A DNA stretch of 64,000 bases from NCBI RefSeq assembly GCF_902706095.1, contig NZ_CACSJP010000002.1, positions 62,001-126,000 on the forward strand. The letters are read 5' to 3'. Origin of the DNA: Rhizobium sp. 18065 (GTDB taxonomy: Bacteria > Pseudomonadota > Alphaproteobacteria > Rhizobiales > Rhizobiaceae). Shown piece after piece: positions 3,643-18,052 of this stretch; the stretch's first letter is position 1; every line of letters starts with the position of its first letter. The notes under the pieces are model-generated. The model was not told the origin of the DNA, made no database searches, and worked only from the letters and a program-made list of their open reading frames with translations. A program made the position numbers and the translations under genes.

Positions 3643-4148
3643 GGCAGCCCCACAATCCGCCGATAAGCGCGTCTCAGGATATCCATCACCAGCTTCTGCT
3701 CGTCTTCGGGGATGAAGGAAAAGAAATCGCGCGACTGCTTCGGCACAATCTCGCGCACCTTGACTGCAAGGGCGGCGCCAGCCTCTGTGATGTAGAGCTC
3801 CTGTGCGCGGCTGTCTTCTGGCGATACGTCGCGGCGGATCAGATCGTGCAGTTCCATCTGGTCGATCAGCCGTCCCATGGCCGAACGATCCTTCAGGATC
3901 AGATGGGCGATGACGGAAGGCCGTATGCCCGGATAGTCGTCCACAAGAAGCAAGGTCGTGATTTTTCCTGTCCCCTTCGCCACATCCAGCCCCTCAAGTC
4001 GCACATCGAGATCGCGCGAAACGGCAAGATTGACGGTGCGGATGTAGAAGCTCAGCGTGTCTTCCAGCACATCGATATTGATGTCCTCTGGAATTGTCGG
4101 CGGTTTGGCAGGCGGTTTGATCATCAGGGATTCCGTTCGAATGGACAA
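3639..4148 (-). CDS. MarR family transcriptional regulator
   Basis: Winged-helix regulator of 161-169 residues. The centre fits a MarR fold: a recognition-helix region (PSVIAHLILKDRSAMGRLID), then the wing with DRSAMGRLIDQMELHDLIRR and the DSRAQELYITEAG hairpin. Start choice is open: TTG at 4148 has GGAG five nt upstream and ATG at 4124 has only a weak GGAA. The stop overlaps the SDR start, so regulator and enzymes form one operon. A half-site shared with the palindrome in front of the ATPase gene lies about 95 nt upstream, so it may control both units (inference). Confidence 0.85.
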   Translation of the reverse strand: MSIRTESLMIKPPAKPPTIPEDINIDVLEDTLSFYIRTVNLAVSRDLDVRLEGLDVAKGTGKITTLLLVDDYPGIRPSVIAHLILKDRSAMGRLIDQMELHDLIRRDVSPEDSRAQELYITEAGAALAVKVREIVPKQSRDFFSFIPEDEQKLVMDILRRAYRRIVGLP

Positions 4149-4240
4149 AGGGGCTCCAGCACGGCGCAGCCATCATCTGGCACTGCCGTCGGGTTCTCGA
4201 CCATCTCGTATTGCAGTTCGGTGACGATATGAAAGGGCAA

Positions 4241-4261
4241 TTAGTGGACAAGATCAACTAA
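4241..4261. promoter_or_regulatory. candidate operator upstream of the marR operon
   Basis: The stretch beginning TTAGTGGACAAGATC has inverted ends (TTAGT and ACTAA) and contains TGGACAAGAT, the half-site that forms the arms of the large palindrome at 6111-6151. It lies in an AT-rich region about 95 nt upstream of the MarR start codon, a normal place for autoregulation. The link to MarR is inference from the shared half-site. Confidence 0.4.
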
Positions 4262-4417
4262 ATTGTTTGACCTGATCTAAATATTTTTATTTAATTTCAA
4301 TGCCTTGCTGGAACAAAGAGGTTCGTCGCAGGCTTCGCAAGGAGCCGGCGGAAAAAGGTGCCCTAGAAGGCGGCAGAGCGGCCGGCCGGGGGGACTTCGC
4401 CGCCGCTCCTCTCTTGG

Positions 4418-6058
4418 TCAGGCGGTCGCGGCCACCGGTTCCCAGTCCGCGCCGGGGATCGCGGCAACGAGCTTGCGGGTATAGTCGTGCTGCGGATCGC
4501 GGAAAATCCTGGTCGGTGGCCCCTGCTCCACCACGATGCCCTTGTGCATGACAATCACCTCATCGCAGATCTGGCTCGCCACCCGCAGATCATGAGTGAT
4601 GAAGATCATGGCGACCTTCATTTCCATCTGCACACGGGCCAACAATTCGAGGATCTGCGCCTGGATCGACACATCCAGCGCCGAGACCGCCTCGTCGGCC
4701 ACCAGCACCACGGGATCGAACATCAGCGCCCGGGCAATCCCGATACGCTGGCGCTGGCCGCCGGAAAACTCGTGCGGGAAACGGTCATAGGCCTGCTCGT
4801 CGAGACCGACGAGCTTCAGGAGCCTCAGCGCCTTCGACCGGGCTTCCGTCACAGAGGTGCCGTGCGCAACCGGCCCGACCGTGAGAATTCTGCCGATCGT
4901 ATGGCGCGGGTTAAGCGAGGCAAAGGGATCCTGGAATATCATCTGAATATAGGGGCGAAGCGCCCGGAAGCTCTCTTCCGGCATGGCGGCAATGTCGCGC
5001 CCGTCGAAATGAATCGATCCACCATCCGGCTCCAGAAGCTTCAGAAGCATCCGGCCCAGAGAAGACTTGCCCGACCCGCTTTCGCCGACGACACCCAGCG
5101 TCTGGCCCTTGCGCAGCCGGAAGCTGATGCCGTCCACCGCCTTGACGACGCGCGCCTTGTGAAAAAGTGTGCCGCCGCTGCGATATTCCTTTTGCAGATT
5201 TTTCACTTCCAACACTACCTGCGGAGCATCGCTGACCGCGCCGGCGCTTGCCCGCATGCGCGGCACGGCCGCAACGAGCCGCTTCGTATAGGCATGGGCA
5301 GGATGGACCAGTACCTGATCGGCCCGCCCCTGCTCCACTACATAGCCCTTTTCCATCACCACGACGCGATCAGCAATCTCGGCCACAACACCAAAGTCAT
5401 GCGTAATAAACATCACGCTCATGCCCTTGCGCTTCTGGATACTGCGGATGAGATCGAGGATCTGTGCCTGAGTTGTCACATCGAGCGCCGTCGTCGGCTC
5501 GTCTGCAATCAGCACCTCCGGATCAAGCGCCAGCGCCATGGCGATCATCACCCGTTGTCGTTGGCCACCGGAAAGACGGAATGGATATTGCAGTCGCATC
5601 AGTGGCGGATCGGGCAGCCCCACTTCCTCCAGCAAGGCAAGAACCTTGGCCTTCCGGGTTTCTGCCGTGCCGTACCCATGTGCTGCCAACACCTCGCCGA
5701 TCTGGTCGCCCACGGTCATCAGCGGATTGAGCGCGGACAGCGGGTCCTGGAAGATGATGGAGACGGCCCGGCCCCGCAGGGGACGGATAGCCTCCTCGCG
5801 AGCGGATAGGATATCCATTCCACGGAAATGGATCTCGCCCGCACTGACTTTTATCGCGGGTGACAGCAGGCCCATAATGGTGTTGGCAGTGACGGACTTG
5901 CCCGATCCGGACTCTCCGATGATGCAGAGGATTTCCCCCGCATAAAGATCGAAGGAAATTTCCTTGACTGCGTGGGTACGCTCCATTCCCGGCGGCAGAT
6001 CCACCGTGAGATTACGAACGGAGAGCACCACGTCGGCCGACGTGGTGGTTTGCGACAT
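4418..6058 (-). CDS. ABC transporter ATP-binding protein, fused DppD-DppF type
   Basis: Cytosolic ATPase of about 546 residues with two complete ABC cassettes, as in many rhizobial peptide/nickel/opine importers. Both Walker A motifs ([24 protein letters not shown]), both signatures (LSGGQRQRVM, FSGGQRQRIG) and both Walker B motifs (ADEPTTALD, ADEAVSALD) are intact. The ATG at 6058 is preferred because AAGGGGAAC lies just upstream; a GTG at 6103 would add 15 residues. It is transcribed towards the marR operon and the binding protein at 1458 and probably powers that importer. The 41-bp palindrome immediately upstream suggests strong regulation. Confidence 0.92.
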   Translation of the reverse strand: MSQTTTSADVVLSVRNLTVDLPPGMERTHAVKEISFDLYAGEILCIIGESGSGKSVTANTIMGLLSPAIKVSAGEIHFRGMDILSAREEAIRPLRGRAVSIIFQDPLSALNPLMTVGDQIGEVLAAHGYGTAETRKAKVLALLEEVGLPDPPLMRLQYPFRLSGGQRQRVMIAMALALDPEVLIADEPTTALDVTTQAQILDLIRSIQKRKGMSVMFITHDFGVVAEIADRVVVMEKGYVVEQGRADQVLVHPAHAYTKRLVAAVPRMRASAGAVSDAPQVVLEVKNLQKEYRSGGTLFHKARVVKAVDGISFRLRKGQTLGVVGESGSGKSSLGRMLLKLLEPDGGSIHFDGRDIAAMPEESFRALRPYIQMIFQDPFASLNPRHTIGRILTVGPVAHGTSVTEARSKALRLLKLVGLDEQAYDRFPHEFSGGQRQRIGIARALMFDPVVLVADEAVSALDVSIQAQILELLARVQMEMKVAMIFITHDLRVASQICDEVIVMHKGIVVEQGPPTRIFRDPQHDYTRKLVAAIPGADWEPVAATA

Positions 6059-7446: not shown

Positions 7447-8445
7447 ATGAGCTGGTTCGACGAAACGATCATGGCCCGCAAGGGCGTTGCCAAGGGCAAG
7501 GTCGGGGAGACCTACAGCATTACCGAGGAAAGCCAGGGCAAATACCACTATGTCTACGGTGCCTATGTCGATCCGGTGCTAACGGTCGATCCGGGTTCTG
7601 TGGTCTCGGCAGAAACCCACGATGCCTTCGAAGGGGCGATCCAAAACGAGACTGATATCCCGTCCCAGATCCTCAATTTCCCCTTCCTCAACCCGCAGAA
7701 CGGTCCGATCTATGTGAACGGCGCCGAAAAGGGCGATTGCCTCGCTGTCTATATCAAGAGCGTCGTGCCGCGCGGACCGCAGCCACGAGGAACGACCGTC
7801 ATCATGCCGGAATTCGGCGGTCTGGTTCCAACGGCAGATACCGCAATGCTGACCGCACCCCTGCCCGAGCGGGTCCGCAAGCTGCATGTCGATGCGCAGA
7901 CGGGTGTGAAGTGGAGCGACCGGATCACCCTTCCCTATGAGCCGTTCATCGGCACTATCGGGACCGCACCGGAAATCGAAGCGATTTCCTCGCTGGTCCC
8001 GGACTATTACGGCGGCAACATGGACCTTCCAGACATCTGCCCCGATACTGTGATCTACCTGCCGGTCAACACCAAGGGTGCCTATCTCTACCTCGGCGAT
8101 TGCCATGCCGCGCAGGGCGACGGCGAACTTTGCGGCGTGGCTGTCGAGCACCCGACCGTGACCACCGTTCAGATCGACCTGATCAAGGGCTGGACCATCA
8201 AGACGCCACGCCTTGAGAACGACCGCTTCTACATGACGATCGGCTCGGCACGGCCGATGGAGGATGCGACCCGCAGCGCATACCGCGAGCTCATCCGCTG
8301 GATGGCTGCCGACTTCGGCTTCGACGAGATCGACGCCTACATGCTGCTGACCCAATGCGGTCGCGTGCGCCTCGGCAACATGGTCGACCCGAAATACACG
8401 GTCGGCGCCTCGGTACTGAAATCGATCGTCGGCATTGCTGCCTGA
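7447..8445 (+). CDS. acetamidase/formamidase family amidohydrolase (copy 1)
   Basis: Hydrolyses short-chain amides such as formamide or acetamide to ammonia and the acid; 332 residues, within the range of the FmdA/AmdA family. Family marks seen are SAETHDAFEGAI near the N-terminus, YYGGNMD, and the strongly conserved GDCHAAQGDGELCG block near residue 218. The start is an ATG with AAAGGAG about 10 nt upstream. It lies 41 nt after livF and 62 nt before the nitrilase, so the three are probably co-transcribed for uptake and hydrolysis of an amide or nitrile. Confidence 0.92.
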   Translation: MSWFDETIMARKGVAKGKVGETYSITEESQGKYHYVYGAYVDPVLTVDPGSVVSAETHDAFEGAIQNETDIPSQILNFPFLNPQNGPIYVNGAEKGDCLAVYIKSVVPRGPQPRGTTVIMPEFGGLVPTADTAMLTAPLPERVRKLHVDAQTGVKWSDRITLPYEPFIGTIGTAPEIEAISSLVPDYYGGNMDLPDICPDTVIYLPVNTKGAYLYLGDCHAAQGDGELCGVAVEHPTVTTVQIDLIKGWTIKTPRLENDRFYMTIGSARPMEDATRSAYRELIRWMAADFGFDEIDAYMLLTQCGRVRLGNMVDPKYTVGASVLKSIVGIAA

Positions 8446-8459
8446 TCGACCCGTGTTGC

Positions 8460-8484
8460 GGACCGCCCGATATCCGGGCGGTCC
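8460..8484 (+). other. intercistronic hairpin
   Basis: Ten-base perfect arms GGACCGCCCG (8460-8469) and CGGGCGGTCC (8475-8484) around ATATC lie between the acetamidase stop and the nitrilase start. There is no T-run, so it probably tunes mRNA stability or partial termination. Confidence 0.45.
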
Positions 8485-8507
8485 ATTCCGTCCCGATGGA
8501 GATTTTG

Positions 8508-10229
8508 ATGACAGCCCCGTTCAAGGCAGCAGCCGTACAGCTCGAACCCCATTTCGGTGAGAAGACACGAAATCTGGACGCGCTTCTGGCACTCGTTGAG
8601 GAGGCCGCCACGAGCGGCGCGAAACTGATCACCACGCCGGAAATGGGGACCACGGGCTACTGCTGGTATGACCGAGCAGAAGTCGCCCCTTTCGTCGAGA
8701 CCATTCCGGGTCCGAGCACCGACCTATTTGTGGAACTGGCCCGCAGACACGACTGCTACATCGTCATCGGCCTTCCCGAAGTCGATCAGGAGACGAACCT
8801 CTACTACAATTCGGCAGCGCTGATCGGGCCGGACGGCGTCGTCGGCGTGCATCGCAAGACCCATCCCTACATTTCGGAGCCAAAATGGGCCGCATCCGGC
8901 GATCTCGGCCACACGGTCTTCGAGACGAAGATCGGCCGCATCGCCATGCTCATCTGCATGGACATCCACTTCATCGAGACGGCGCGGCTGGCGGGTCTCG
9001 GCGGAGCCGACGTAATCTGCCACATATCCAACTGGCTGGCCGAGCGGACCCCGGCTCCCTACTGGATCAGCCGGGCCTACGAGAACGGCTGCTATCTGAT
9101 CGAGAGCAACCGCTGGGGCCTGGAGCGCGGCGTCCAGTTTTCCGGCGGCAGCTGCATCATCGCTCCGGATGCCGAAATCCTCGATGTCGTCGATGATGGC
9201 GACGGGATTGCATACGGGACCATAGATCCGGCCAGAGCGCGTCAAAGGCTTGCTTCCGGCGAACCGGTGATGGCCCAGCGTCGCCCTGAACTTTACCTGG
9301 AACTGATGACCAACACGTTCAGCTGGAATCCGAGAGACTTCTTCAGCCTTTATGGCCACCAGCCAATTCCCGAAGGCCGTCCGGCACGCATTGCGGTTGG
9401 CGAACTGGCACCATCGGCAGACATCGCGGAAAATTTGTTATCCCTTCTGGAATTGGCCGAAGGCGCCAAGACCCAGGGCGCGGAACTCGTCGTCTTTCCA
9501 GCGCTCGCCCTGACCGGTTCGACCGATCCCGCGGCCGCGGCAATCCCGGCAAACCATGACGCCCTGCAGTCCCTCAAAGCATTGTCCGACCGGCTGAACA
9601 TCTCCATCGTCGCCGGCTTTGCCGAGAAACACGACGACGCGCTTTACAGCAGCGCCGTCATCACGACGCCGAACCGTCCGATCACCTTCTGTCGCCAGAT
9701 TCACTTGACCGAAAGCGAGCAGACCTGGGCAAAGCCCGGCAACGAATTCTGCGTGCTTGATCTGTCCTTCGGGCGGATTGGCATCATGATCGGCCATGAT
9801 GCAGCCTTTCCGGAAACCGCCCGCATCCTGGCCCTCAGGGGCTGCGATCTTATCTGCTGCCCATCCAGTATAGAAAACGGCTTCCATTTCGGACACGAGG
9901 GCAGCGCGGTCCGCCAGCCAGATCCGATCCCGTGCGGCAGCGACCCGGTGCACTGGCATCACTACCGGGTTCGCGCCGGCGAAAACAATTGCTATCTGGC
10001 CTTCGCGAACACGAGGAGCACGGCCAGCAATGCGCATGGCCTGAGCGGCATTTTCGGCCCGGATACTTTCGCTTTTCCGAGACGGGAAGCGATCGTCCGT
10101 GACGGCGCTCTCGCCGTGGCAAACATCGATCTCTCGAATGCCGGCCCCACCTATCCAACCAATGTAGCGCGTCGCAAGGATCTGGTCCTCATGCGACAGC
10201 CGCATCACTATACGGCGCTGATCAGATAA
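8508..10229 (+). CDS. tandem carbon-nitrogen hydrolase (nitrilase superfamily), second domain catalytically dead
   Basis: A 573-residue protein with two nitrilase-fold domains, twice the usual length. Domain 1 (about 5-285) has the full triad: Glu45 in TPEMGTTGY, Lys117 in HRKTHPY and Cys150 in LICMDIHF. Domain 2 (about 292-570) keeps the fold landmarks but has Ala332 (VVFPALALTG), Gln397 (CRQIHL) and Gly429 (MIGHDAAFPE) where Glu, Lys and Cys should be. Domain 1 therefore probably hydrolyses an amide or nitrile, and domain 2 may be structural or regulatory. ATG 8508 is chosen over ATG 8496 because GGAG lies six nt upstream. The genomic context with acetamidases fits organic-nitrogen release. 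Confidence 0.88.
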   Translation: MTAPFKAAAVQLEPHFGEKTRNLDALLALVEEAATSGAKLITTPEMGTTGYCWYDRAEVAPFVETIPGPSTDLFVELARRHDCYIVIGLPEVDQETNLYYNSAALIGPDGVVGVHRKTHPYISEPKWAASGDLGHTVFETKIGRIAMLICMDIHFIETARLAGLGGADVICHISNWLAERTPAPYWISRAYENGCYLIESNRWGLERGVQFSGGSCIIAPDAEILDVVDDGDGIAYGTIDPARARQRLASGEPVMAQRRPELYLELMTNTFSWNPRDFFSLYGHQPIPEGRPARIAVGELAPSADIAENLLSLLELAEGAKTQGAELVVFPALALTGSTDPAAAAIPANHDALQSLKALSDRLNISIVAGFAEKHDDALYSSAVITTPNRPITFCRQIHLTESEQTWAKPGNEFCVLDLSFGRIGIMIGHDAAFPETARILALRGCDLICCPSSIENGFHFGHEGSAVRQPDPIPCGSDPVHWHHYRVRAGENNCYLAFANTRSTASNAHGLSGIFGPDTFAFPRREAIVRDGALAVANIDLSNAGPTYPTNVARRKDLVLMRQPHHYTALIR

Positions 10230-10235
10230 CCTGCC

Positions 10236-10622
10236 CTAGCCCGGACGTCGGGCGACCAGATCGATCTCGATCAGGGCGTCATAGGCCAGACCGGTAACGC
10301 CGACGCATGTTCGGGCCGGCAGTCGATCGGCGGAAAAATAGCCGCGATAGGTTGCGTTCATCACCTCGTAGTCTTCCTTGAAACGCGTGAGATAGATCCT
10401 GGCCATCACGACATGCTCAAGCCCAAGGCCAAGGCCGGCGAGCACGGTCTTCAGATTTGCCATAACGTGATGCGTCTGGGCCTCGATCCCGTCCGGCAAC
10501 ACACCCGGTACCTCCGGTGTATCCGGCATCTGCCCGGTGACGAAGACGAATCCATCCGTCTCCACAGCATGGCTAAAAGGCGCGACCGGCTTCGGCCCGC
10601 CGGAAATCATGTGAAACTGCAC
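10236..10622 (-). CDS. RidA family (YjgF/UK114) protein
   Basis: A 128-residue member of the RidA family, whose founding enzymes hydrolyse reactive enamine/imine intermediates to ketones and ammonia. Family marks are the SHAVETDGFVFVTGQ strand near the N-terminus and the arginine in the PARTCVGV motif near residue 104. It follows the AraC-acetamidase gene by only 4 nt on the same strand and converges with the nitrilase gene. This placement suggests it clears intermediates from amide or amine catabolism. The divergent C-terminal half leaves the exact subfamily open. Confidence 0.88.
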   Translation of the reverse strand: MQFHMISGGPKPVAPFSHAVETDGFVFVTGQMPDTPEVPGVLPDGIEAQTHHVMANLKTVLAGLGLGLEHVVMARIYLTRFKEDYEVMNATYRGYFSADRLPARTCVGVTGLAYDALIEIDLVARRPG

Positions 10623-10626
10623 CTGG

Positions 10627-13035
10627 TCATTCCTGTTCGGTCTCGAATATTGCTTTGCGGATGATGGCGTGGACGCCCCAGTTTCCGTCGACCACCTGGG
10701 TCACTCCGAAATCGACGGCGGCCGACATCACGGCGATCGCCTCGTCCTCGCCGAGGCCCTGAACGGACATCAGGAACCGCCGCGCCTTGCGGAAGGCGTC
10801 CTTCATCGCCAGATCGAGGGAGGACTTTGCATAGACCTCGCCCTGTCCCTTGGCGCCGAACTCGGCCAAATAGTCGGGATGACTGAACCCGGTCAGCACC
10901 CATTCGCCCGGCGTCTCGATCAGCGGATACGTCAGGTCGCTAAAGCGCGGGTCTTTCTTGTGCAAGGTGACCCGCACTCGCCCGGTCATCGAACACTCGA
11001 TCGCAGTTCCCGAAAGCTCGCCATCGCCCTGCGCGGCATGGGGATCGCCGATCGACAGCAACCCGCCGTGAACCGAGACAGGAAGAAAGACGCTTGCGCC
11101 TTTTCCCAGCCGCCAGTTGTCGAGATTCCCGCCGAAATAGGCCGGCGGCACGGAATCGATGAAATCGACCTCCCGCGGCGCCAGCGCGATGACGCCGAAA
11201 TGCGGCCGAAGCGGAATATGCACACGCCCGCTGGTTGATCGACGGATATCAAGACTGGCAGACTTCACCAGTACGCCCGGGTAATCATAGGTTCGATGGA
11301 CGACCCCGAAAGGATCCGTCTGAGGCGCCCAGGGATAGGAATAGAGCGCCTGGGCATAGCCTTCCTCGGGAAAGACCTCGTAGATCGTTATATTCTCGCG
11401 CGGCTTCGGTTCGGTCAGCAGCTCACCGTAGTGATACCCCCACCAGGCGGCAACATTGCTACCGTAATAGCGCCCCTCGTGGCCCGGTCCGCGGCTCGGC
11501 CTGGGCAGCATGTCCTCGATATGAACCTCGATCACATCGCCGGGCTCGGCATCCTTTACATAGATCGGTCCGGTGCAGATATGCACGCCGAACCCCTCGC
11601 CGGCGCCACGCCCGAAAATCGATGCATCGACAGGGCCTGCGCCGCGGCGATCGACGGATTTGCGGTGTTCCGTCCAGTGAAACACATCTTCGGCGCCACC
11701 ATCGCCCTCGATCATCAGTTCGGGTGCATCGGAGGCATGCTGGCTGAGCGTTTCGATCTCGACCGTATCACCCGAGCTGATCTCCAGCACCGGCTCGAGC
11801 GAACGGCTGAAATAGCCCCAATGAACATTTGAGGCATTGATGCTCAGCTTGTGATGCACTGTGGCGGGACGCGCAGTTATTTCCGGGGCACGTTCGTCAC
11901 GCTTCATGGTGCCGTCCAGCCTGTTGCTCGACAGCGACTTCTTGGCGGTCAGCGCCTTGACCGGCCAACCACGCTGCTCGGCATTGCCGCCGTCGATCTG
12001 GCTTTCAAGGTGACGGTTCCTGAACGCGCCGGGCGGCAGGCCGAAGCGCTCTTTGAACACGCGGTTGAAATTCGCCGCATCGCCGAAACCGCAGCTATAG
12101 GCGACGTCGGCCACCGGCAGCCTGACTTCGGCCGACGTGACCAGTGCCGCACGAGCGCGCTGAAGGCGACGTTCGCGCAGATAGTGGGTGAAGCTCTCGC
12201 CGTTCTGTTCGAACAGTTTCTGCAGATAGCGTTCCGAGATTCCCTCGACCCTGGCCACCCTGGCGGACGATAGATCTGGATCGTGCAGACGCTTCTCGAT
12301 CGCGACCGTCATCCGGTTGAACAGTGCTGCCAGACTGGGCGTCGAACGCATGTCCGCCGATTCGGTTTCGACAATCATGGTCACGAACAGATCGGCCATG
12401 AACTGCTCGAACGATTGCCACTCGGCAGCTGAGAAAGCGTTGATTTCCGCCGCTGCACTTTCCACCGCACGGATGAAGACCGATGCCAGCCCTTTCGGCA
12501 GGTAGCAACGCGGATCGGCAAACGGCGTCCAGCCGGCGCCTCGCCGCTGCAGCGCAGCATCGGAAAGGCCAAGGGCCAGGATACGGTTGTTGCCCGGGAG
12601 CTTCATCTCCCATGGCCGGTCCATCTGCAGGACCACCAGCGCTCCACTGTCGACCCGTAGGCGGAAATTTCCGCCGGTCACCTCGACATCGGCGTCGAGC
12701 GGGATCATGCCCATCAGCATCCGGGATCGCTGCGGGATCGACGACAGGGCCTGCGAACTGGCGACCAGCCTCGCCAAAATGACGCTCTCCCGGTCACCGC
12801 GCAGGATCGCACTCGAATACCGGCCGGTCTCTCCTTCAAGGGCGAGCGAACGGAGGTGAAGCTCCGCCAGGACCTCGCGCCACATGTCGTCGCGCGTGTC
12901 GCCGGGATAGGATTCGGCTATGAACTGCCTGACATTCATCCCTTCATCCAAGGTGCCGATCGGCGCTGTCGGCGCCTTCATCGGTTTATCTTGCACCTGC
13001 GAAGAAGGAAATGCCAGACCCGGTCTCAATAGCAT
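10627..13035 (-). CDS. AraC family regulator fused in frame to an acetamidase/formamidase domain
   Basis: One uninterrupted frame of about 800 residues. The first part (to about residue 345) is an AraC-type regulator: an AraC-binding-like sensory domain, then two helix-turn-helix motifs (VARVEGISERYLQKLF, VADVAYSCGFGDAANFNRVF). After a linker of about 45 residues comes a complete acetamidase (from about 380) with GDPHAAQGDGELSG. ATG 13035 overlaps the stop of the upstream acetamidase; ATG 12981 is an alternative start. An internal ATG at 11907 sits where a free acetamidase would begin, but no stop codon separates the parts. Separate translation from 11907 cannot be excluded. It may couple sensing of an amide to transcription. 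Confidence 0.82.
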   Translation of the reverse strand: MLLRPGLAFPSSQVQDKPMKAPTAPIGTLDEGMNVRQFIAESYPGDTRDDMWREVLAELHLRSLALEGETGRYSSAILRGDRESVILARLVASSQALSSIPQRSRMLMGMIPLDADVEVTGGNFRLRVDSGALVVLQMDRPWEMKLPGNNRILALGLSDAALQRRGAGWTPFADPRCYLPKGLASVFIRAVESAAAEINAFSAAEWQSFEQFMADLFVTMIVETESADMRSTPSLAALFNRMTVAIEKRLHDPDLSSARVARVEGISERYLQKLFEQNGESFTHYLRERRLQRARAALVTSAEVRLPVADVAYSCGFGDAANFNRVFKERFGLPPGAFRNRHLESQIDGGNAEQRGWPVKALTAKKSLSSNRLDGTMKRDERAPEITARPATVHHKLSINASNVHWGYFSRSLEPVLEISSGDTVEIETLSQHASDAPELMIEGDGGAEDVFHWTEHRKSVDRRGAGPVDASIFGRGAGEGFGVHICTGPIYVKDAEPGDVIEVHIEDMLPRPSRGPGHEGRYYGSNVAAWWGYHYGELLTEPKPRENITIYEVFPEEGYAQALYSYPWAPQTDPFGVVHRTYDYPGVLVKSASLDIRRSTSGRVHIPLRPHFGVIALAPREVDFIDSVPPAYFGGNLDNWRLGKGASVFLPVSVHGGLLSIGDPHAAQGDGELSGTAIECSMTGRVRVTLHKKDPRFSDLTYPLIETPGEWVLTGFSHPDYLAEFGAKGQGEVYAKSSLDLAMKDAFRKARRFLMSVQGLGEDEAIAVMSAAVDFGVTQVVDGNWGVHAIIRKAIFETEQE

Positions 13036-14267
13036 CGGAACACGTTCTTGCGGATCGATCCGTGAACGCCCCAGTTTGCATCCACTACCTGCGTCACGCC
13101 GAAATCCGCGGCCACCGACATTAATGCGATCGCCTCGTCTTCGCTGAGCTTGTGCGCCGTCATCAAGAAACGGCGGAGCTTGCGGAAAGCGTCCCGCATG
13201 GCACTGTCGACGCTGGAGTGCCGGGCGATCTCCGTCTGCGCATTGGCGCCGAGACTTTCCAGATAATTGGCATAGGTGAAACCATAGACCGACCATTGAT
13301 CGTCGGTTTCGAGCATCGGATGAGACAGCCCTTCGAGGATCGTTCCCGCGAGATCCGCCTTCTTGTGAAGGACGAATTCGAAATCACCGGTTAGCGACGT
13401 CTCGATCGCCGTACCCCCGAGTTCGCTGTCGCCCTGCGCCGCATGCGGATCGCCAACGGAGAAATAAGCCCCGTGGACAGCGACCGGATAATACATCCGC
13501 GCACCTCTTCCGATCCGCCAGTCATCGATATTGCCGCCGGTATAGGACGGCGGGATGGAGCTGACGAAATCGGCTTCCGCTGGCGCAAGGCCCATCGTGC
13601 CGAAATGCAGCCGCGCCGGTACGCGCACGTTCTGCAGAATGTTCTCGCGACGCTTCACCAGTCGGTGGTCAACGCGTACGCCAGGATAGTCGATTGTCGG
13701 ATGAACGATGCCGTCCGGGTCAGTCTGTGGCGTCCAGACATAGTTATAGACCGCCTTGGCATAGGGTTCACCGGCCGTGTCGAGTTCGAAGATGGTTACC
13801 ACCTCGCGCGGCTTCGGATCCTCGATCAGGTCGTGATAGTGAAAACCCCAGTTCGCTGCCACGTTGGAGCCGAAACAGCGCCCGGCGTAACATGCGCTGC
13901 AGCTGGGGCGTGGCCGGACATCCAGAACGCGCACTTCCAGGATGTCGCCGGGTTCGGCGCCGTCGATGGCGACGGGACCGGTCAGCAGATGGACCCCCAC
14001 CCCCTCGCCCGCGCCGACCTTGAACGGTCCCTCCGTCGGGCCGGAACCGCGCCGCGCGATCGTCTTCTTTTCCTTGGTCCAGTGAAAAATGGCTTCCGCT
14101 GCCGGATCGCCTTCGACCATTCGCTCGTAGTCGTCATTGGCGTGATGTGTCAGCGTTTCGATCGTGGCGCGATCGCCCGACTTCAGCACAAGCGCAGGCT
14201 CGACCGCCTTGCTGAAATAGCCCCAATGCACCGTGGTAGGCGAAACTGGCAATGTGTAGTGTTTCAT
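13026..14267 (-). CDS. acetamidase/formamidase family amidohydrolase (copy 3)
   Basis: A 413-residue acetamidase, longer than copy 1 and close in sequence to the domain of the downstream fusion; both share TVHWGYFS or NVHWGYFS near the start and FGVTQVVD.NWGVH near the end. The conserved GDPHAAQGDSELGG block is present. ATG 14267 has GGAG seven nt upstream and is preferred over longer in-frame starts. Its stop overlaps the start of the AraC-acetamidase gene by 10 nt, so the two are coupled. It probably cleaves a small amide in the cytosol; the physiological substrate is unknown. Confidence 0.92.
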   Translation of the reverse strand: MKHYTLPVSPTTVHWGYFSKAVEPALVLKSGDRATIETLTHHANDDYERMVEGDPAAEAIFHWTKEKKTIARRGSGPTEGPFKVGAGEGVGVHLLTGPVAIDGAEPGDILEVRVLDVRPRPSCSACYAGRCFGSNVAANWGFHYHDLIEDPKPREVVTIFELDTAGEPYAKAVYNYVWTPQTDPDGIVHPTIDYPGVRVDHRLVKRRENILQNVRVPARLHFGTMGLAPAEADFVSSIPPSYTGGNIDDWRIGRGARMYYPVAVHGAYFSVGDPHAAQGDSELGGTAIETSLTGDFEFVLHKKADLAGTILEGLSHPMLETDDQWSVYGFTYANYLESLGANAQTEIARHSSVDSAMRDAFRKLRRFLMTAHKLSEDEAIALMSVAADFGVTQVVDANWGVHGSIRKNVFRCY

Positions 14268-14310
14268 CTGCGTCTCCGATTGCGAAGCTTTCCACAGACC
14301 GTCACGCGGT

Positions 14311-15909
14311 CTAGCCGGCCTCATTTTCCATGATCTGAAGGAATTGCGCTGTGCGCGCGTTCTTGGGCCTCACAAGCATCTCCTCGGCGGCGCCCTGTTC
14401 GACGATCGCGCCGTCGGCTAGAAAAACCGCCCGGTCGGCAACATCGCGTGCGAAGCCGATCTGGTGGGTCGAAATCACCATCGTCAGCCCGTCTTCCACC
14501 GCAAGGCGCCGGATCACTTCAAGCACTTCGCTGACGAGTTCCGGATCGAGCGCCGAAGTTGGCTCATCGAGAAGCAAGATTGCCGGATTGGGCGCCAGCG
14601 CCCGGGCAATGGCAACACGCTGCTGCTGTCCACCAGACATATGGCGCGGCAATGCCTCTGCCCGGTGGGAAAGGCCGACACGGGCGAGAAGCTCGCTGGC
14701 CCGGCGATCCGCCTCGCGGACGGACAGGCCCTGGACCCAACGCATCGGACCGGCAATATTTTCCTTGGCCGTCAGGTGCCCAAACAGGTTGAAGTTCTGG
14801 AATACCAGGCCAACGCCGATGCTTGCCCTTTCGTTCGCAATCGCCCGTGGCGAAAGGGTTCGGCCATTGGGGCTGGTACCGATCCGGCGCCCCAAAACTT
14901 CAATCTCGCCGCTGTCCCAGGTCTCAAGATGATTGATGCAACGCAGCAACGTGCTCTTACCCGAGCCGCTTGGTCCCAGAAGGGCCACGACCTCGCCGAT
15001 GCGCATGTCAAGCGTAAGCCCGTCGAGCACGACTCGCCCCGAATAGCTCTTGCGAAGCTCTCGGATTTCCACAGCGGGTCGGCTGGAGGCGAGCGCCGCC
15101 CAGCGTTTTTCCTTGTCCACCGGACGCGAAGCCTTCGCCGTGGCCGGTGGCAAGGGTGCCTCGGCTGCGGCAACCGGCGACACGGGATCGGCTGTAACGC
15201 CATCGGCCCTCCCGGAGCGGTGCCACGGCAAAAGCCGCGCGAAGTAGTTGCCTGTCTTCTGCCTCTCAAGATCCAGCGCCGACTCGACGACAAGCTGGAT
15301 GACCGCGATTGCCCCGGTGAGCAAAAGATACATCAGACCGGAGGCGAAGAATATCGAGAAGAAGTCGAAGGTCGCCGATGCAAGCTGGGTACTGCGCAGG
15401 GTCAGTTCCTGAACCGAAACGACCGATGCAAGAGAGGAATTCTTCAAGGCGCTGACGGCCTCGTTTCCAAGCCCGGGCACCATCGTGCGGATGGCCTGGG
15501 GAACGACGATACGCAGCATGATCGAAAGCGGTCGCATGCCAAGCGCCTGGCCTGCCAAAATCTGCCCGCGATCGACGGCGATCACGTTGGCACGGATGAT
15601 CTCGGCGATGAACGGCGCCTCATTCAGCGCCAGCGCCAGGCTCGCCGCCTCGATAGCGCTGAGCCGGATGCCGATCATCGGCAACGCATTGTAGCAGAAG
15701 ATCATCTGCAGGATCAGCGGCGTGCCGCGAAAGATTATCGCATAGCCACGAGCGAAACTCGCCAGCACGCGAAACCGGCTGAGCTGCATGACGGCAAGCA
15801 CGATACCCATGACAACACCGCCGACAAGGCCATAGCAGGTGATCAGCACCGTGTAGACAATGCCGGTAATCAGATAGGGCTGGCTCAGATAATGAAAGAA
15901 AAGATCCAT
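14311..15909 (-). CDS. polar amino acid ABC transporter, permease fused to ATPase
   Basis: A 532-residue inner-membrane protein. Residues 1-225 are a HisM/GlnP-type permease with several membrane segments and the EAA-like loop around GQALGMRPLSIMLRIVVPQAIR. After a proline/alanine-rich linker, residues 290-532 are a GlnQ-type ATPase with GPSGSGKSTLLR, MSGGQQQRVAIAR and LLLDEPTSALDPE. Such fusions are known in Rhizobiaceae. The binding protein lies 68 nt upstream on the same strand, and the acetamidases lie downstream, so the operon may import an amino acid or amide and then deaminate it. Confidence 0.93.
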   Translation of the reverse strand: MDLFFHYLSQPYLITGIVYTVLITCYGLVGGVVMGIVLAVMQLSRFRVLASFARGYAIIFRGTPLILQMIFCYNALPMIGIRLSAIEAASLALALNEAPFIAEIIRANVIAVDRGQILAGQALGMRPLSIMLRIVVPQAIRTMVPGLGNEAVSALKNSSLASVVSVQELTLRSTQLASATFDFFSIFFASGLMYLLLTGAIAVIQLVVESALDLERQKTGNYFARLLPWHRSGRADGVTADPVSPVAAAEAPLPPATAKASRPVDKEKRWAALASSRPAVEIRELRKSYSGRVVLDGLTLDMRIGEVVALLGPSGSGKSTLLRCINHLETWDSGEIEVLGRRIGTSPNGRTLSPRAIANERASIGVGLVFQNFNLFGHLTAKENIAGPMRWVQGLSVREADRRASELLARVGLSHRAEALPRHMSGGQQQRVAIARALAPNPAILLLDEPTSALDPELVSEVLEVIRRLAVEDGLTMVISTHQIGFARDVADRAVFLADGAIVEQGAAEEMLVRPKNARTAQFLQIMENEAG

Positions 15910-15977: not shown

Positions 15978-16898
15978 TCAATCGGCGAGAACGAGCTTGG
16001 GCTCTTCGATCTGGCCTTCCGGAAGGTTCCATTTCTTCATCATCTCGACCTGCTGGCCGGACGTCTGGATTTCGGTGAGCGCAGCCATGACGGCGGCACG
16101 GAAATCATGATTGTCGCGCGGCACCGCAATGCCGACGGAGTACGGAAGGGTGACCGCCGTCGCCTTTTCGAGCTTGTCAGGATAGGCCTTGACGGCGCCA
16201 TCGACGGTATTCACATCGTTGATGTACGTATCCGCACGGCCGGCCAGGATGGCCTGGATGCAATTGGCATTGTTGTCGTAGAGCTGAATTTCCGGTGCCG
16301 GCAATCCGGCCGCCTTGCAGTCCGCTTCCAGCGCCTGGATTAGCGGCACTTCGACATAACCCGTGTTTTCTGCGGCAACCGTGCCGCAAAGGGATTTGTT
16401 GATGCCGTTGATCTTTTTCGGATTGCCCTTGGCGACAAGAACGCCATCGGAAACCTTGAGATAGGTGATGAAGTCGGCAGCCTTGGCGCGATCCTTGGTG
16501 GCGTAGATATCCGAAATGACGATATCGGCCTGGCCGGCCTGGAGCGTCGTTAAGAGCGCTGCGAACGTCACCGCCTTGTATTCCAGTTTGAAGCCGAGGC
16601 ATTCGCCTATCGCCTCTGCGAGATCGATGTCGAAACCGATATATTTCATCGGGTCGTTGGGATCGATCGTCTCATATCCCGGCGTGTGCGGGTTGATGGC
16701 GTTGACGAGCGTCTTGCCCTTCAGCGAAGGATATTTCGCCTGCAGGTCGGCGCAGGCTGCAGGCGCTGCGGCATAGGCTTCCGACGAGGGTGTGAAGGTT
16801 GCGGCACCAACGGCGACTGCGAAGAGATGAGCCGTCAGACCGAGGCCAAGCCACGTCCGGCGAAGTGCCGGAATACTCCCAGTTCCAAATTTTTCCAT
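15978..16898 (-). CDS. amino acid ABC transporter substrate-binding protein (family 3)
   Basis: Periplasmic binding protein of about 306 residues with an N-terminal signal segment (hydrophobic run through AVAVGAATF, probable cleavage after AYA). Family 3 landmarks are YIGFDIDLAEAIGECLG, the loop LQAGQADIVISDIYAT and the GRADTYINDVNTV block. ATG 16898 is favoured over ATG 16910 because GGAGCGGGAA lies directly upstream. Four cysteines outside the signal region could form disulfides. It feeds the fused permease-ATPase encoded downstream. Confidence 0.92.
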   Translation of the reverse strand: MEKFGTGSIPALRRTWLGLGLTAHLFAVAVGAATFTPSSEAYAAAPAACADLQAKYPSLKGKTLVNAINPHTPGYETIDPNDPMKYIGFDIDLAEAIGECLGFKLEYKAVTFAALLTTLQAGQADIVISDIYATKDRAKAADFITYLKVSDGVLVAKGNPKKINGINKSLCGTVAAENTGYVEVPLIQALEADCKAAGLPAPEIQLYDNNANCIQAILAGRADTYINDVNTVDGAVKAYPDKLEKATAVTLPYSVGIAVPRDNHDFRAAVMAALTEIQTSGQQVEMMKKWNLPEGQIEEPKLVLAD

Positions 16899-16910
16899 TT
16901 CCCGCTCCAT

Positions 16911-18052
16911 TGGTTAGACGCTGCTTTCTTCACGCAGCAGACAACCGGAGCTTAAGTGGAAATCCGCCCTAGGTTATTGTCGGCGGGCGCACATATTATT
17001 GTCATACTGGGGCATGAAATTCACTCGTTAATTCATATGCTTAAGTATTGTGCGGCAGGCGGGTAAAAAACAAGCAGACTGGCCACGAAAGCAGCATCGG
17101 CTTTCGCGAAATGCTGATAACCCCGGTTGGGGTTCGAGCAGATGGACGTTGCAGATATTGAGCTCTGCATAGGCCGCGGACCAGCAGCTCGACACGTCAG
17201 CCCGCCATGCCCATGCTGACGGACGCTCGACTGATCGCCAGATCGATCCTCCTGTCGATACCCCCAAGACCGCCTGAACTCAAAGCAGTGGAAACCCTCT
17301 GGCCGTTGATGCGACAAAACTGCCTATAAAAGCATCCTGAAATCCCACGATGATATCTCGCCCGCTACAAAGGCGCGTGGCGCAAGCCCGAAAGCCAACC
17401 TTGGCGCCTCAAATCCATCAAACCCAGAGGATGGGCTAATAGGTTCTTTTAAATATGAGGGCGTATAGCATGTGAGGAGAGGTGACGAGCAACTTCGGCG
17501 TACTGCGTGTTGGCCTGCTACGTATCGGGAACTCATCATCCAGATAAAGTTGGCAGCTTGAAGTCGGCGTCAGGATCGGCCAAAGGACCGAGTTCGACCT
17601 AAAATCGCGCCACAGGGCTCCGGTCCTCATTTTGACGGTCCGAGGATATCAATCGGCCATGCGCTCACATCATGGGACGCTATCGAGCGTTTTGCTCCAA
17701 GATGTGAACCCGTGCAGTATCCTGGGAAGGCTCCGGTCAGGTTATGTTGAAAAACGATGTCGTCGCAGCCCTTGCTGTAATCACACTTGTTGGAAGCGGT
17801 TTGCTCCATTCAAAATGCAACGCGCTATACTGAAATATGCCAACTCAAGCTGTCGGCCTTTGGGTCAAAGCGGGTCTTTATCGACCGAAACCGCCCGGTA
17901 TCGTCCTTAACGTGGCTGCGCCGCAAGCTGCCATTCTGCCCCGCCCCAAAGCGATAATCGCCTTTCCATAATACGCGTTCATTCAGAATGATTTGGTACT
18001 TGGTACATGCAATTTCACATATTATATTGTTATATATAAAGAAACTGGCGCT
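16911..18052. other. about 1.1 kb without a recognisable gene (decayed DNA)
   Basis: Only short frames without ribosome-binding sites or family resemblance occur on either strand. Base composition is lower in GC and less regular than in the flanks, and stops are frequent. It lies between the amino-acid transporter and the broken integrase and is best read as degenerate island-edge sequence. No intact transposase motif was found. Confidence 0.6.

Follow-up and report, generated by a model that had tools for sequence, protein, structure and literature searches.

The stretch of DNA analysed here, 64,000 nucleotides from Rhizobium sp. 18065 (the window), encodes a cupin-like domain, an AraC-type double helix-turn-helix (HTH) and an acetamidase in one protein chain. 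The fusion is genuine, conserved and common to many soil bacteria. Its amidase domains form a single clade, and its gene lies in an operon whose promoter carries a conserved motif. On balance, we read the protein as a regulator of the AraC type that governs, probably by activation, the uptake and hydrolysis of amides, with the amidase domain supplying or tuning the signal. That it is a regulator we infer with good support, and its own amide operon is the probable target.

The fused gene occupies positions 10627..13035 of the minus strand and encodes 802 residues from the ATG at 13035; its raw frame extends further, with a start at 13296 (-). The plus-strand translation across 10627-13035 contains several stops. 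An earlier note on this DNA, which gave no strand, had claimed that an AraC regulator and an acetamidase share a single stop-free frame. The open frame and Pfam bear this out, with the minus strand as the coding strand. Pfam profiles match the protein above their cut-offs: AraC_binding_2 at residues 110-218 (31.1 bits, cut-off 27), HTH_18 at 261-341 (78.9 bits, cut-off 33.6), HTH_AraC at 306-340 (36.4 bits) and FmdA_AmdA (PF03069) at 484-798 (97.2 bits, cut-off 27). An AlphaFold2 model, built from 41 sequences (mean pLDDT 75.3, pTM 0.51), is beta-rich at about residues 35-180, helical up to about 351 and an amidase, partly of low confidence, at about 394-800. The cupin-like N-terminal domain is placed at residues 35-180 (12496..12933, -) by the model, by AraC_binding_2 and by Foldseek matches to cupins and full-length AraC proteins. 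The AraC-type DNA-binding region covers residues 245-345 (12001..12303, -), as judged from HTH_18 and the helices of the model. The acetamidase domain covers residues 394-800 (10636..11856, -); here FmdA_AmdA is joined by PDB 3b9t, which matches by sequence (E 5e-159) and by fold (Foldseek E 7.2e-53). Foldseek also returned further acetamidases, CuxR, CsvR, Rns, ToxT and isolated AraC HTH structures. The regulatory half has both features of an AraC/XylS protein, the double HTH (PF12833) and a cupin-like, ligand-type N-terminal domain.

The start of the protein deserves a remark. Many homologues align from residue 31-33 onward only, the first 33 residues have a pLDDT below 50 in the model, and in one related record the annotated start corresponds to Met33; for these reasons the protein may comprise 770 residues, starting at Met33, instead of 802.

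As to the linker, the earlier note was mistaken. The stretch GDPHAAQGDGELSG, which it took for the joint, lies within the amidase at residues 663-676 (11008..11049, -); in alignments it is the acetamidase motif GDxHxxQGD, which is shared by standalone amidases. The real linker comprises residues from about 346 to 393 (11857..12000, -). It is 43-58 residues long in 89 fused proteins, has a median identity of 21% to the window protein and shows a pLDDT below 50 at residues 349-388. Directly after the HTH stands RGWP (residues 355-358; 11962-11973, -), and RGxP recurs in all 16 linkers printed, despite the variability of the rest.

The operon, read from its first gene, consists of a family 3 solute-binding protein (SBP_bac_3; 15978..16910, -), an ABC permease and ATPase in a single polypeptide (BPD_transp_1 and ABC_tran; 14311..15909, -), a standalone acetamidase (13026..14324, -), the fused gene and, at its end, a RidA-family protein (Ribonuc_L-PSP; 10236..10622, -). 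The standalone acetamidase is 53% identical to the fused domain and overlaps the first ATG of the fused frame by 10 nt. Neighbourhoods were counted in 81 loci, i.e., the window and 80 others. The cluster of the binding protein is present in 71 and that of RidA in 60; the permease/ATPase cluster, which may include other ABC ATPases, is found in 78, and all three partners in 54. The loci devoid of the permease/ATPase cluster (L041, L088 and L092) all have short flanks. The permease/ATPase polypeptide (14311-15909, -) belongs to an importer of the polar amino-acid type, and the same fused product is found in public records.

Other arrangements exist. In all eight loci L142-L149, the fused gene is divergent from a standalone acetamidase; six of these acetamidases, as called, contain a TAT-like RRxFL pattern, and the other two a similar stretch. 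In Caballeronia, the fused gene diverges from a binding protein, a permease/ATPase and an acetamidase, with nitrile hydratase genes further on, and this gene set points to amides. The divergent set there (L164:278-2022) holds nitrile hydratase subunits with an accessory gene, a clue to the substrate. Instead of the ABC operon, L154 (676-5297) has a TRAP transporter (DctP, DctQ, DctM) and a gene of the gamma-glutamyltranspeptidase family divergent from the fusion. The neighbours of the loci with other arrangements share no substrate clue. The common theme of the neighbourhoods appears to be uptake and hydrolysis of amide-type compounds.

Upstream of the binding-protein operon there is a conserved site, CAAT-N5-GTRCG-N6-GACAA, which we consider the predicted operator. 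In the window it reads CAAT-N5-GTGCG-N6-GACAA (16976..17003, -) and is itself part of the training set of the motif search and matrix that define it. A possible -10 box, TAAGCT (16949..16954, -), was read by eye 22 nt after GACAA. The motif search was a Gibbs search in 61 regions upstream of the binding-protein gene, lightly thinned and mostly from Bradyrhizobium, an excess that the matrix weights offset in part. Two of four runs yielded CAAT-N5-GTRCG, with the highest information; the third run picked up a similar sequence lying further upstream, and the fourth a weaker, different motif. A loose version of the full pattern is present in 51 of the 61 regions, and 35 of these 51 loci have a box of the type T[AT]NNCT (similar to TANGCT) exactly 22 nt downstream, a count by script that excludes the window's own box since an earlier match was scored there. 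In upstream regions of the Bradyrhizobium type, e.g., L044 and L050, a second operator-like copy (CAGTTTTTGTGCAG), possibly a direct repeat, precedes the main site by about 45 bp.

In 18 other loci, the region upstream of the fused gene was also scored with the matrix built from the 51 sites, against 30 shuffles each that preserve base content but not dinucleotides. It exceeded all shuffles in eight loci, seven of them distinct, as L166 repeats L144: L153 (24.7 bits), L154 (19.1), L142 (18.9), L148 (13.6), L144/L166 (10.6), L146 (9.4) and L143 (8.0). Scores not above the shuffles were obtained in L145 (0.5), L147 (1.0), L149 (1.0), L150 (-2.4), L108 (-4.1), L163 (-7.3) and L167 (-6.4), as well as in L164, where 9.3 bits were surpassed by one shuffle with 14.9; with these eight loci, the predicted operator is not seen in every arrangement. 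L159 (-6.6) and L160 (-0.8) did not exceed their shuffles either, yet no site is expected there, since the fused gene sits inside the operon.

A matrix scan of 331,479 positions in 20 loci gave ten sites of at least 10 bits and seven of at least 13 bits. All seven lie in operon promoters or adjoin the fused gene. Two of them fall in operon promoters, that of the window and that of L160, both in the training set (L160 via L033); the other five, in four loci outside the training set, are all upstream of the fused gene, two overlapping ones in L142 and one each in L148, L153 and L154. The remaining 10-bit sites are located upstream of the fused gene in L144 and elsewhere in L150 and L151 (11.1 bits each). 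Where only standalone amidases are present (L151, L152, L155-L158), no site of at least 10 bits lies upstream of the amidase. Cross-training between genus groups, a comparison without a null, gave modest values of 4.3-13.7 bits (20 of 39 values printed) and 0.8-16.4 bits (12 values). In the window's genome, the pattern has one exact match, two with one mismatch and 45 with two mismatches (reversed control: 29). The sole exact match is the one upstream of this operon, so that the regulon may there consist of this operon alone.

How could such a protein work? The cupin-like domain, the double HTH and the acetamidase, being one chain, would most likely be brought to CAAT-N5-GTRCG-N6-GACAA at the promoter of their own operon, and thereby to the genes for solute uptake, a second acetamidase and RidA. 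In some other genomes, the protein would bind in the intergenic region shared with a divergent amidase or transporter operon. Amides would be the signal: the fused amidase domain would bind an imported amide and probably hydrolyse it, and the occupancy of this domain would alter DNA binding or activation. The protein would then resemble a trigger enzyme and would probably act as an activator, with the amidase domain as its putative signal input.

Substrate sensing via the amidase domain, which the earlier note had suggested, is plausible and the most attractive mechanism, as far as sequence comparison can tell. Indirect support comes from the pattern of conservation and from the retention of the residues that are invariant in the amidase family sampled. 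The median identity to the window protein is 26% for the cupin-like domain, 59% for the HTH and 74% for the amidase, which makes the amidase the best conserved part; among the folded parts, the cupin-like domain is conserved least. In the 74 loci that have both genes, however, the standalone amidase reaches a median of 85% versus 74% for the fused one; the fused amidase is, therefore, not better conserved than a plain enzyme. The ratio of N-domain to HTH identity amounts to 0.38-0.55 in 19 of the 21 fused proteins printed and to 0.68 and 0.83 in the two closest ones, and these low values overlap the ranges of control AraC proteins (0.49-1.19 for one control with 13 relatives, 0.47-0.62 for a second with 6). 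The data lean towards a relaxed constraint on the cupin-like domain, which in turn makes us lean to the amidase as input, even though the ranges overlap. Against sensing by the amidase speaks the fact that the AraC half carries its own N-terminal ligand-type domain.

A self-limiting sensor-enzyme is a possible, albeit tentative, variant: the amidase would report the amide to the AraC domain and also destroy it. The flux through the fused active site would then set the expression of the operon, and the cupin-like domain would be structural only. If true, this would define a class of AraC regulators with a catalytically competent amidase as input domain. Our confidence is low for this variant and no more than moderate for the preferred reading: about half of the other loci lack the operator, and the contrast in conservation is not peculiar to the fused proteins.

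Does the fused amidase still catalyse? The residues that are invariant in a 32-member alignment of the PF03069 family are kept in its eight fused rows, among them D664, H666, Q669, D671 and E673, and they are conserved in at least 97% of the 89 fused proteins. Together with a profile match above cut-off, this places the domain within the family, and it probably retains catalysis. Seven positions (411, 432, 534, 634, 651, 672 and 706) differ in a fixed manner, at a level of at least 95%, between fused and standalone amidases. Position 432 is His in 84 of 84 standalone and Gln in 89 of 89 fused proteins, Gln being also seen in L150 and L153; in view of this exchange, catalysis may differ from that of the standalone enzyme. 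A "dead enzyme" was not accepted on the basis of H432Q, since ordinary family members likewise lack the His.

These residues bear on a rival view that we consider rather unlikely, namely that the amidase domain has been turned into a pure ligand-binding domain. MocR-type regulators offer a parallel for an enzyme domain that merely binds a ligand. The seven fixed differences, with H432Q and Y651L among them, would fit this view, and a separate enzyme is usually present. Yet every residue invariant across the 32 diverse family members is retained, ordinary PF03069 members often have Leu at 651 besides lacking His432, and in the genome of L154 no further acetamidase was detected at 1e-40, which means that in this genome the enzymatic work may fall to the fused domain.

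Equally doubtful is a fusion for mere co-expression, in which the cupin-like domain would sense while the amidase is simply attached, both being made together. The AraC half is indeed a complete regulator of cupin plus HTH, the amidase retains its residues, and the disordered, variable linker argues against rigid coupling. It speaks against this, however, that the cupin-like domain is conserved least among the folded parts, whereas HTH and amidase stay conserved. Moreover, a standalone acetamidase already adjoins the fused gene in most loci, and a second, tethered enzyme would thus need another reason.

The earlier note had asked for a search for the same architecture in other genomes. One uninterrupted frame spans both domains in 88 of 91 homologous loci (11 from the family sample plus 80 of 115), and the known breaks fall outside the linker. 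Of the exceptions, L010 and L041 begin at a contig edge and must be one stretch from two collections, because their coordinates and scores are identical; L086, a MAG, has an in-frame stop within the amidase part.

It is very unlikely that the amidase is made also, or only, from the internal ATG 11907, or that the chain is cut in the linker. The linker is predicted to be disordered and contains this ATG in the window, where it encodes Met377. But the column of Met377 is a gap in 72 of the 89 fused proteins, and any Met is present in the linker of just 17; in consequence, no conserved internal start is seen, and a start at ATG 11907 was rejected. A sequencing or assembly error that deleted a stop between two genes can be dismissed: single broken copies do occur, in an R. 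johnstonii plasmid (near residue 151) and in the MAG L086 (the amidase stop), yet neither is broken in the linker, and the frame is intact in 88 of the 91 loci.

The spread of the fusion is patchy. A match at 1e-60 is present in 12 of the 394 genomes of the family sample, one of them being the window's own, and in none of the five same-genus genomes listed. At 1e-40, 11 of 385 genomes of the class sample match, three of them over both halves, and 17 of 398 of the phylum sample, eight of them over both halves; the window's own genome is counted in each, the two samples overlap, and the remaining matches there are to the amidase only. One locus (L112/L150), first scored as amidase-only, actually carries the fusion, its AraC half being more diverged, which raises the fused total of the class sample to four. 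A long AraC-matching frame elsewhere in the window's genome (L008) has no amidase among the frames listed. In 16 of 17 plasmid records, a single place accounts for at least 80% of the query; Betaproteobacteria are represented among them by Caballeronia, Paraburkholderia and Variovorax. The patchy spread and the carriage on plasmids suggest horizontal movement. The annotation of the R. johnstonii plasmid (L165, locus 7547-9956) splits the fused gene into two CDSs, the frame change lying in the cupin-like part. A quick tree was built from 52 of 190 amidase domains after thinning at 88% identity; the 28 fused domains fall into a single clade (SH-aLRT 97) close to standalone amidases, most of which have a TAT-like signal. 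This tree omits four sequences that lacked a recognised start, and its row L086_fus_657, despite the label, is the standalone amidase of L086. By this tree, the fused amidase domains are of one origin.

The earlier note had compared the protein to PutA. The comparison fits, in that the single-frame fusion, the operon partners and the promoter site are all conserved, and the site recurs near fused genes in other arrangements. PMC8249747 counts PutA, NadR, BirA, PepA and PyrH among the trigger enzymes and gives the putA-putP spacer as a binding site of PutA. As in the PutA-type proteins described there, a catabolic enzyme and a DNA-binding regulator are united in one chain, and, as with PutA, the predicted site is in the promoter of its own operon or in a divergent intergenic region. 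Unlike PutA, NadR and BirA, the fused protein combines an AraC HTH with a PF03069 amidase and an extra cupin-like domain, and it is probably an activator, not a repressor.

In the GATase-1 AraC regulators, an enzyme-related domain precedes the HTH. In the fused protein, the amidase follows the HTH, its fold is different, and its family-invariant enzyme residues are kept; a GATase-1 or DJ-1-like domain had no Pfam match in it at 0.001. What the two have in common is nitrogen-compound catabolism and an enzyme-related domain, to judge from the part of PMC5806209 that deals with CdhR and GbdR as GATase-1 AraC regulators. Within PF03069, the nearest solved structure, 3b9t, matches the whole C-terminal domain with 55-56% identity over about 415 columns; the fused domain differs from plain members of the family by its place behind an AraC regulator and by the seven fixed differences from its standalone relatives. 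The best full-length AraC match by fold is CuxR (PDB 5nla; E 5.8e-11, TMt 0.54), a cupin-type AraC activator without an enzyme domain, and the match covers the first half of the fused protein. Fusions of the Ada type also join an AraC HTH to an enzyme, there for DNA repair; enzyme and signal are unrelated to those of the acetamidase fusion.

A published description of an AraC-acetamidase fusion was not found in the titles and abstract openings listed from an open-licence library, which does not prove its absence, and such a regulator is not mentioned in the excerpts seen of PMC10781810 and PMC5052560. Public records label the protein as "AraC family transcriptional regulator" or as "acetamidase/formamidase family protein". 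The present analysis, thus, adds a widespread enzyme-regulator fusion that the records seen name after one of its two halves. It is also a warning that an annotation as enzyme may, for some PF03069 genes, conceal a regulator. The fusion is a candidate amide-responsive switch; with a predicted operator, a target operon and a likely class of substrates at hand, one can directly test whether AraC proteins sense by way of an enzyme domain.

Some neighbouring genes may be mentioned. In the window, a shorter, canonical acetamidase (7447-8445, +) is followed by an overlapping frame of 624 residues (8355-10229, +), whose single polypeptide contains two CN_hydrolase (nitrilase) stretches; both point away from the operon and are another amide/nitrile gene pair adjoining it. 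Near the fused gene of L146, another combination of regulator and enzyme is seen in a frame at 3650-4675 (+), which unites a MarR-type DNA-binding region and a GNAT acetyltransferase.
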